Shown here piece after piece: positions 22,878 to 24,293 of a DNA stretch of 41,613 bases. A program made the position numbers and the translations under genes. The stretch covers positions 1 through 41,613 of IMG/VR virus record IMGVR_UViG_3300046721_000195. One strand, given 5' to 3'. Numbering within the stretch: position 1 is the first letter of the stretch; every line of letters begins with the position of its first letter. The notes below the pieces were generated by a model. The model was not told where the DNA came from and did no database searches. It saw nothing but the letters and a program-made list of their open reading frames with translations. This stretch comes from a virus.

Positions 22878-23008
22878 CAGCTCAGCCCTATGCAAAGCAA
22901 GATCAGGGCGACGGCCCAGACCATGAAGAAAAAGCCGGCGACGATCTCGGCGGCGAGGAAACTACCGGTATGAGGTGAGAGGTGCAGCATGGGGCGCTCC
23001 GTCAGCAT
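22877..23008 (-). CDS. 43-residue single-span membrane protein
   Basis: A short protein with one strong hydrophobic span (residues ~20-42, AEIVAGFFFMVWAVALILLC). CTGGAG precedes the ATG at 23008; a second ATG at 22990 is also possible. It overlaps the upstream HNH/HTH gene by 7 bases and the Gp157-like start by one. Function is unknown; superinfection exclusion is one idea given its early position. Confidence 0.6.
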   Translation of the reverse strand: MLTERPMLHLSPHTGSFLAAEIVAGFFFMVWAVALILLCIGLS

Positions 23009-23508
23009 GGTGAACTCCAGAGATCTTCCGGCTTGATTTGCAATGCAGTCGCATAGGCAAGTTGTTTTCTGCCATTCAGGCGCCACGGATCGCGCTCTAT
23101 GCGGTAGACACTCTCACGCGCAATACCGAGGCGCCCAGCCATGGCTTCGGCTGAGATACCTTTGGCTTCCCGGTGCTCTGTGAGGAAAAGGCGACGGGCA
23201 ATTGTCATCGGATGGAGGTTGCCTGCGCGTTGTTCCGCGGCATGGTGCAGTTGATGGTGCTGACGACAGAGCCAACGCACGTTGAGTGGTTGGCCGTAAT
23301 CGTCATGATGTGCGTCAGCTTTGGGTTTGCCGCAGATTTCGCATGGCCCGCGGGTCAGTTTCCCCTGCTTAATGGCAGCATGGACTTTGGCTTGGATGGC
23401 GAGCTGGAATTTGTCGCGCCTGTGTGCGCATGACCAACATCGTTGCCGTCTGGCGCATCGTTGGAAAGATGCGCCGCAGTCAGGGCAGGTTTTGGTCCGA
23501 GCTTCCAT
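23002..23508 (-). CDS. Zinc/HNH-like protein fused to XRE helix-turn-helix
   Basis: A 168-residue first product of the leftward promoter. The N-terminal CPDCG and CWSCA pairs form a zinc ribbon. The middle CEICGKPKADAHHDDYG ... LCRQHHQLHH is an HNH-like zinc segment. The C-terminus (GISAEAMAGRLGIARESVYR, then QIKPEDLW) is an XRE HTH. The ATG at 23508, with ACGGAGCG upstream, lies about 20 bases after the predicted start of transcription. The fusion could act as an early DNA-binding regulator or a targeted nuclease; catalytic competence is uncertain. Confidence 0.72.
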   Translation of the reverse strand: MEARTKTCPDCGASFQRCARRQRCWSCAHRRDKFQLAIQAKVHAAIKQGKLTRGPCEICGKPKADAHHDDYGQPLNVRWLCRQHHQLHHAAEQRAGNLHPMTIARRLFLTEHREAKGISAEAMAGRLGIARESVYRIERDPWRLNGRKQLAYATALQIKPEDLWSSPC

Positions 23509-23533
23509 GGAAGCGCTCCGTGCGTGACGGAGA

Positions 23534-23562
23534 GCAATAGGACACGCTGTCCTAAGTGTCAA
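23534..23562 (-). promoter_or_regulatory. Leftward early promoter (PL-like)
   Basis: On the minus strand, -35 TTGACA (23557-23562), a 17-base spacer and -10 TATTGC (23534-23539). The operator at 23539-23553 fills the spacer up to the -10, and the second operator abuts the -35. It drives the HNH/HTH-recT-xis-int operon. Confidence 0.75.
23539..23553. promoter_or_regulatory. Operator O-L1 (GGAC-N5-GTCC dyad)
   Basis: AGGACACGCTGTCCT is a perfect dyad (arms extend to TAGGAC/GTCCTA). It lies between -35 and -10 of the leftward promoter, so a bound repressor would block RNA polymerase. Confidence 0.75.
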
Positions 23563-23576
23563 GGACTCATTGTCCT
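23562..23576. promoter_or_regulatory. Operator O-L2 (GGAC-N5-GTCC dyad)
   Basis: AGGACTCATTGTCCT, 23 bases centre-to-centre from O-L1, overlaps the edge of the -35 element and ends just before the repressor gene's stop. Confidence 0.75.
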
Positions 23577-23581
23577 GACGA

Positions 23582-23869
23582 TCAGGCGGCCTTGCGCCGG
23601 CGGACGCGAACCGGGACTTCCTTGGGATAGTCGGCCGGGCCTTGGCCTTCTCCGGTAAGGAGCCACTCCATCGATACCCTGGTAGCGGCGCAGAATTTCG
23701 GGATGAAGCGGTGCGGGAGTGGGGTCCTGGTTTCGTATTGCTTGTAGGTGCCCTGTTCCACGCCGAGAATGGTCATCATCGGTTTTTGTGTATCGAACGC
23801 GGCTTCGCGTGCCTGCTTCACCCGACGGACGAAGCTAAGCCTTTCTTCCGTTTCCGACATCCGGGCCAT
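23582..23869 (-). CDS. Short XRE-family phage repressor
   Basis: A 95-residue HTH protein (RLSFVRRVKQAREAAF ... MTILGVEQGTYKQYET ... IPKFCAATRVSMEWLLTGEG) with a basic tail. Such small XRE proteins act as phage CI-type repressors. It lacks a LexA/CI-like cleavage domain, so induction must work by another route. It lies between two clusters of the same operator dyad. Start options are ATGs at 23869, 23860 and 23875; one operator (23870-23882) covers the first codons. A longer frame from 24058 would run through the operators and cro and is rejected. Confidence 0.78.
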   Translation of the reverse strand: MARMSETEERLSFVRRVKQAREAAFDTQKPMMTILGVEQGTYKQYETRTPLPHRFIPKFCAATRVSMEWLLTGEGQGPADYPKEVPVRVRRRKAA

Positions 23870-23882
23870 GGACATAGTGTCC
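23870..23882. promoter_or_regulatory. Operator O-R3-like (GGAC-N5-GTCC)
   Basis: GGACATAGTGTCC abuts the repressor start codon. Occupancy here would shut the repressor's own transcription, as at lambda OR3. Confidence 0.7.
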
Positions 23883-23905
23883 CAAAGCGGATGGCTGTGG
23901 TCACG

Positions 23906-23918
23906 GGACTCCTTGGCC
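23906..23918. promoter_or_regulatory. Imperfect operator O-R2-like
   Basis: GGACTCCTTGGCC matches 7 of the 8 conserved half-site bases. It lies just upstream of the -35 of the rightward promoter, a position suited to cooperative repression or activation of the repressor promoter. Confidence 0.5.
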
Positions 23919-23947
23919 TTGAAAAAGGGGACGATTTGTCCTATGGA
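23919..23947 (+). promoter_or_regulatory. Rightward early promoter (PR-like) with operator O-R1
   Basis: -35 TTGAAA (23919-23924), 17-base spacer, -10 TATGGA (23942-23947). The spacer ends with the perfect dyad GGACGATTTGTCC (23929-23941) directly against the -10, exactly as in the leftward promoter. Confidence 0.65.
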
Positions 23948-23954
23948 CTTTGAC

Positions 23955-24293
23955 ATGCCTGATGCCTCTCGAATTTCCTTTCGCGACATCATGAATCTCT
24001 GGCCGTCAACGGATGCGATGGCGGATGAGTTTGGCGTGAGCACAATGGCTGTACGCAAGTGGTGGCAGCGCTACCGTATCCCACTCGAATATTGGAGTGA
24101 GGTGCTGGCTGCGCCGCGTGTGAAGTCAGCTCATATCACTCTCGATCAGTTGTTGGCGGCGTTCGATGCCCTGCCGCGGAAGGAACCGCAAAAAGGACGC
24201 CGCCGAATGGCATTTGGTATGTCCCGGCGAGCTGCACAAGGGGCAGCGGACATGTCAGGACGACGCAAGGGTTTAGTCCGCAATACGCTTTAA
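23955..24293 (+). CDS. Cro-like / YdaS-like HTH protein
   Basis: A 112-residue DNA-binding protein transcribed divergently from the repressor. HTH region: NLWPSTDAMADEFGVSTMAV then RKWWQRYRIPLEYW (residues ~13-46), followed by a basic tail. An ATG at 23943 gives four extra residues but lies inside the predicted -10, so transcription starting around 23954-23956 would make the mRNA leaderless at ATG 23955. The likely role is lytic-side control of the operators and first gene of the rightward operon. Confidence 0.7.
   Translation: MPDASRISFRDIMNLWPSTDAMADEFGVSTMAVRKWWQRYRIPLEYWSEVLAAPRVKSAHITLDQLLAAFDALPRKEPQKGRRRMAFGMSRRAAQGAADMSGRRKGLVRNTL

Follow-up and report, generated by a model that had tools for sequence, protein, structure and literature searches.

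A probable compact lambdoid immunity switch with GGAC-N5-GTCC operators and a short 434-type repressor in phages of Alphaproteobacteria

Temperate phages of the lambda, 434 and P22 type carry their repressor gene between two operator clusters lying on divergent early promoters; OR has three sites, among them a weak middle one and one over PRM, and the first rightward gene, divergent from the repressor gene, codes for Cro. In lambda, CI activates its own promoter from OR2 and shares its operators with Cro. The half-site core of phage 434 is ACAA, and the glutamine which contacts the outermost A of that half-site is Gln28. Gln28Ala is a specificity mutant of the 434 repressor, and the mutant made by Wharton and Ptashne in 1987 reportedly pairs Ala with T. 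The contact of a 434 glutamine with an A:T base pair has been documented (PMC6230420). Other repressors follow different schemes: those of the RstR family from CTX-type small phages (NF041951) are short HTH proteins without S24 domain, and GfoR, GfhR and GtgR of the Gifsy phages are uncleavable repressors of lambda-like switches, used together with antirepressors. Finally, Cluster A mycobacteriophages are a large natural collection of phages whose operator motif varies with the repressor, and the C-terminal region of that repressor also influences specificity (PMC6550527).

The locus described here shares features with all of these systems. Like the lambda, 434 and P22 switches, it has a repressor gene between two operator clusters on predicted divergent early promoters, three OR sites of which the middle one is weak, judging by its letters, and one overlies the presumed PRM, and a divergent Cro-like first rightward gene. 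Unlike them, it has two OL sites, operator 1 fills the promoter spacer, the repressor gene lies directly next to OL, the repressor of about 95 aa has no oligomerisation or cleavage domain and the Cro-like gene is probably leaderless. The repressor is closest to that of phage 434 by profile and fold, and its position 28 likewise correlates with the outermost base (Gln and A), whereas the core half-site is GGAC, the C-terminal domain is absent and the family contains natural Ala/Pro/Thr and bulky/basic classes. NF041951 is the best NCBIfam match, but the family members tested scored far under its curated cut-off (21.7-35.6 versus 80 bits). In contrast to the Gifsy switches, no LexA-box signal was found here, and in contrast to the many scattered, directional stoperators of Cluster A phages, four or five dyads lie at the switch.

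Predicted operators, promoters and genes of the immunity region

The window, that is the whole stretch of DNA analysed, is a complete phage genome record of 41,613 bp with a 127-bp direct terminal repeat, and also codes for an integrase, RecT, a Gam/Gp157-like protein, a VRR-nuclease, a VapE-like helicase/primase and a terminase. The perfect dyad GGAC-N5-GTCC occurs exactly four times in it, and all four copies (OL1, OL2, OR3 and OR1 in Table 1) are confined to 402 bp (23540-23941) around the repressor gene; because the genome record is complete, this confinement is true of the whole phage. Shuffled versions of the window contained on average 0.69 perfect dyads, four or more being reached by 1 of 100 shuffles, and a Poisson estimate with clustering gave an expectation of about 3e-8 groups of four dyads within 402 bp. 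Among the dyads listed for 29 further records, most lie in the immunity region, with a few strays. The fifth copy, OR2, has one mismatch and, taken alone, has little meaning, since the window holds 15 sites with at most one mismatch versus 20 expected; relatives nevertheless hold it at the same position. The earlier note on this DNA had put four perfect dyads and the imperfect one at just these places, in two clusters flanking one short repressor gene without self-cleavage domain and sitting on divergent early promoters, and had expected enrichment only there. The genome-wide count and the protein analysis agree with it on these points, as do, by their letters, the promoter-like PL and PR.

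Table 1. Features of the immunity region (positions in the window; promoter elements are read from the sequence)
Feature	Position	Strand	Description
First leftward gene	23002..23508	-	HNH-like + HTH protein
Short hairpin	23516..23532	-	near 5' end of predicted PL mRNA; Shine-Dalgarno-like GGAG in 3' arm
PL (predicted)	23534..23562	-	-35 TTGACA (23562-23557), 17-bp spacer, -10-like TATTGC (23539-23534)
OL1 operator	23540..23552	.	GGACACGCTGTCC; within 17-bp PL spacer; same position in relatives
OL2 operator	23563..23575	.	GGACTCATTGTCC; adjoins PL -35; 23 bp from OL1
Repressor gene	23582..23869	-	95 aa; five-helix HTH of 434/P22 type with basic tail, lacking an S24 domain; alternative in-frame starts at 23875 and 23860
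OR3 operator	23870..23882	.	GGACATAGTGTCC; at repressor start; holds -10-like CACTAT (23879-23874, -) of presumed PRM
Presumed PRM -35-like GTGACC	23899..23904	-	19-bp spacer here, 17 in several relatives
OR2, imperfect operator	23906..23918	.	GGACTCCTTGGCC; adjoins PR -35
PR (predicted)	23919..23947	+	-35 TTGAAA (23919-23924), 17-bp spacer, -10-like TATGGA (23942-23947)
OR1 operator	23929..23941	.	GGACGATTTGTCC; within PR spacer
Cro-like first rightward gene	23955..24293	+	112 aa; ATG 13 nt after OR1

The two clusters are built on the same plan. On the minus strand the left one reads GGACAATGAGTCC-TTGACA-CTTA-GGACAGCGTGTCC-TATTGC: the -35 hexamer directly follows OL2, and 13 of the 17 bp of the PL spacer are occupied by the second operator, OL1. 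The right one reads, on the plus strand, GGACTCCTTGGCC-TTGAAA-AAGG-GGACGATTTGTCC-TATGGA. A strict sigma-70 consensus scan called neither PL nor PR, and both are assigned because of conservation, TTGAC directly following OL2 in 38 of 44 family loci. OR2 and OR1 are 23 bp apart in family loci, OR2 is imperfect in 42 of 44 and OR3 perfect in 19 of 44; in the window, OR3 directly adjoins the repressor ATG at 23869. The OR2 defect is recurrent, 22 of the 29 one-mismatch cases sharing a GTCC to GGCC (T-to-G) change or the mirrored A-to-C change, a pattern suggesting that weakness of the middle site is selected for, as in the case of lambda OR2.

The repressor was characterized by structure prediction and profile searches. 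Its AlphaFold model (pLDDT 87) has the XRE/434-type fold, a five-helix, lambda-repressor-like HTH, with no further domain, and its best PDB fold matches include the 434 repressor and Cro, P22 c2, 186 CI, lambda repressors and SinR. Neither the domain search nor the structure model revealed a C-terminal S24 self-cleavage/oligomerisation domain, and the score against Pfam PF07022 (Phage_CI_repr) was 16.6 for a gathering cut-off of 22 bits: although the construction of the switch follows lambda, its repressor is no full CI. Most repressors of the family have about 80-110 aa and many have a basic tail. 

On the right side, a Cro-like gene is the neighbor in nearly all family loci. The products are HTH proteins of 65-112 aa, related to the carph-isopro domain and weakly to P22 Cro and YdaS, with matches below curated cut-offs (for the window protein, 36.9 versus 38 bits for NF046037). 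Their ATG lies 12-13 nt downstream of OR1 in 37 of 44 family loci, where transcription from a -10 element touching OR1 would start, so that the mRNA of the Cro-like gene is probably leaderless; in many members the repressor ATG may stand in a similar relation to a CATAAT-like sequence inside OR3. On the left side, the first gene product presents an HNH-endonuclease-like part fused to a C-terminal HTH domain. The PL leaders of relatives also show a short hairpin at the predicted mRNA start, often with a Shine-Dalgarno GGAG in the 3' arm, and the longest stem in PL leaders averages 6.4 pairs versus 4.6 in shuffles and 5.2 in PR leaders.

Recurrence of the layout in other phages and prophages

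Relatives were sought both through the protein and through the DNA pattern. A protein-blind scan of IMG/VR for dyad-N10-dyad yielded at least 119 stretches, and in at least about 40 of them a repressor homologue adjoins the dyad pair in the same OL/OR layout; the rearranged control GTCC-N5-GGAC gave 15 IMG/VR stretches, none of which had a family-level repressor homologue. The stricter pattern dyad-TTGAC-N5-dyad was found in 41 IMG/VR stretches and, in 257 Gb of bacterial and archaeal sequence (85,000 genomes), in eight places, seven of them alphaproteobacterial contigs (Hyphomicrobiales, Bradyrhizobium, Pseudorhodoplanes, Chelativorans, Methylocystis, Methyloceanibacter and Sphingopyxis), all seven with a repressor homologue beside the match; the loci in Sphingopyxis bauzanensis DSM 22271 and Bradyrhizobium sp. 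Arg816 are prophage-like. The eighth, in a Desulfosarcina MAG (L140:2502-2537), is a perfect OL-type cassette with no recognised repressor nearby, and represents either contamination or a diverged member. Altogether, at least about 45 further phages or prophages from IMG/VR and the 85,000 genomes show the switch layout beside a homologous repressor, with 26-80% identity, and the hosts are alphaproteobacterial wherever they are known.

Most family loci were found via the motif itself, but that search alone does not account for the layout, which is also present in members found by protein alone. The protein-led scans gave L005-L008, which, where the locus spans both sides, show the same dyads together with the imperfect one; these four, L164, L209 and L216 have the same dyads in the same places, L209 and L216 with a 24-bp spacing in OL and OR alike. 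L192 and L193 present one perfect site per side. L213 preserves the spacings of 57 and 23 bp and has AGAC half-sites: at L213:2429-2941, three of the four sites have AGAC in one half at the exact family spacing, a possible variant of the operator core. At the edge of the family, L179 and L190 (E of about 1e-22 to 1e-24) do not have the set of sites, so the pairing of repressor and operator marks a subfamily. Finally, L168 (L168:255-1114) combines the same operator-TTGAC-operator cassette with a full-length repressor having an S24 peptidase domain, with Arg at the apparent 434-position 28 and G outside most sites; this type of operator has apparently passed between repressors that are cleavable and others that are not.

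Searches among sequenced isolated phages found no carrier of the switch. Three family repressors, compared by tblastn with 50,697 phage records, had no close homologue there (best CI-like matches 39% identity), and the immunity region of the window had no DNA match in them. Psychrobacter phage Psymv2, a weak tblastn match, was rejected as a carrier, having no dyads in the stretch examined. The nearest isolated phages by terminase (46-59% identity), Rhizobium phage RHph_I3_18, Bradyrhizobium phage ppBjS10J-1 and Acetobacter phage phiAX1, have other immunity regions, without clustered dyads and repressor, and were rejected as well. A GGAC-N5-GTCC operator of this kind was not found in the literature searched. 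Since neither the phage records nor the literature searched gave a close match, and the nearest isolated relatives by terminase have other immunity regions, we regard the switch as a form of the lambdoid switch not described before, and not as a new kind of system. The novelty that the earlier note had claimed for the operator holds within the records and literature searched, but the dyad as such also occurs, iteron-like, in unrelated phages.

Residue 28 of the repressor and the base flanking the operator

The repressor profile aligns without gaps to the 434 repressor, and the Gln of the window protein (...GVEQGTYKQYE...) falls on 434 Gln28. When loci were sorted by recognition helix, the base outside GGAC tracked the residue at this position. 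Over all loci with readable sites, Gln went with A at 57 of 59 sites, Ala or Pro with T at 19 of 19, and Phe, His, Tyr, Lys or Leu with G at 16 of 16, while Val went mostly with G and Thr was mixed. L113, like the window, is a Gln locus, L114 and L036 belong to the Ala/Pro class, and L065 and L026 have Phe. Residue 28 predicts the flank base in 51 of 51 unambiguous loci, namely those in which the OL1 and OR1 flanks do not disagree, by means of three classes (Gln-A, Ala/Pro/Thr-T, bulky or basic-G) whose grouping, with Thr beside Ala/Pro and Val and Leu beside the bulky residues, was completed after seeing the data. Its mutual information with the flank equals the full label entropy and is the best of about 90 columns, and its leave-one-out accuracy is 0.96 versus 0.78 for the next best column. 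The window itself is slightly mixed, OR1 being preceded by G and not A, and L216, L027 and L050 are likewise mixed.

The rule was written down before further scans. Of the loci read for the first time afterwards to which it applies, L171, L192, L193 and L209 agree with it and L216 is mixed; the test is a modest one, because L171 and L209 are closely related to the first set. The class changes number only about four on a tree that was built without the residue-28 column and is poorly resolved; the flank matches them, and in a phylogenetic independent-pairs test all informative pairs agree, their number being too small for significance. Taken at the level of sequence, residue 28 probably sets the outermost base pair and hence the immunity group. 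We lean towards the broader proposal that this large, uncultured family of alphaproteobacterial phages diversifies its immunity by a one-residue code, in which a change at residue 28 with matching changes at the four or five sites would create a new immunity group. The likeness to lambda OL and OR, which the earlier note had proposed from a single genome, gains from both observations: layout and dyad are found again in at least about 45 further loci beside homologous repressors, and the operator flank varies together with the repressor residue.

Mechanism, alternative readings and induction

We consider it very probable that the locus is the lysis-lysogeny switch of a temperate phage, with the repressor acting at the GGAC-N5-GTCC dyads. 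From the sites, their spacing and layout, their conservation, the residue-base covariation and the predicted fold, we infer the following scheme of binding, repression, activation, looping and Cro action. A dimer of the 95-residue repressor would bind each dyad via its 434-type recognition helix, the half-site being roughly A-GGAC in the specificity class of the window. Bound at OL1 and OR1, between the -35 and -10 elements of PL and PR, it would block RNA polymerase, and OL2 and OR2, which abut the -35 elements upstream, would add occupancy. OR2, weak by its conserved one-base defect, lies between the presumed -35 elements of PR and PRM, from where bound repressor could activate its own promoter, while repressor bound at OR3, which overlies the start of its gene, would regulate itself negatively. 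The two clusters may be joined by OL-OR looping, and the first rightward gene, probably leaderless, would be the analogue of Cro.

It is possible, though we rate it below an even chance, that the main role of the dyads is as operators of the Cro-like protein, or of both proteins, and that the preference of the repressor itself is different. The near-constant presence of the Cro-like gene beside the sites fits such a role, and the conserved asymmetry of the middle OR site might discriminate the two proteins. Against a primary role of the Cro-like protein, the flank base tracks one column of the repressor recognition helix, the very one predicted by the 434 structure; sharing of the sites is still compatible with this.

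How the repressor would be inactivated is a separate question, and the answers are compatible with action of the repressor at the dyads. The earlier note had held that induction must differ from that of lambda; this stands for the window protein, which is without S24 domain, but not for the family at large, since L168, with the same operator layout, carries one. An uncleavable repressor could be removed, as in Gifsy, 186 or N15, by a LexA-controlled antirepressor coded elsewhere in the phage, a route established for uncleavable lambdoid repressors (PMC3121763). We rate this route, too, below an even chance here: 21 family records together had 22 alphaproteobacterial LexA boxes (GTTC-N7-GTTC), about equal to the control matches and hence no enrichment, the sole box of the window lies inside a gene, and the leftward operons of family loci, whose genes are mosaic, contain no conserved antirepressor candidate.

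That the dyads are replication-origin iterons is very improbable, even though the same dyad does occur in arrays phased by 22-23 bp inside O-type replication-initiator-like genes of unrelated phages (L111:10393-11370, L053:3732-4670, L062:4612-5601, L025:4110-4886, L072:2931-3863, L067, L137, L117, L044 and L048). These phased arrays probably are origin iterons; the genes that contain them were identified by eye. Most non-family matches of the dyad-pair scan were iteron-like arrays of this sort, those examined lying in initiator-like genes, and were rejected as relatives. The dyads of the window, however, flank the repressor gene left and right and are not inside an initiator gene, each pair surrounding a -35 element, and TTGAC is absent between the copies of the iteron-like arrays. 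Chance or compositional clustering of short palindromes has a negligible probability, for although one-mismatch copies are no commoner in the window than expected, the clustering estimate and above all the conservation in the diverged loci refute it.

The operator and its repressor form a compact, rule-like immunity module which can be recognised in metagenomes by its DNA pattern alone and which predicts which phages should be mutually immune. If true, the one-residue code would be the equivalent in nature of the Gln28 specificity mutants of 434. Since no carrier was found among the isolated sequenced phages searched, lysogeny in Alphaproteobacteria may have a common switch that has so far escaped examination, and its dozens of natural repressor-operator sets make the HTH recognition code and the crossing between immunity groups directly testable.
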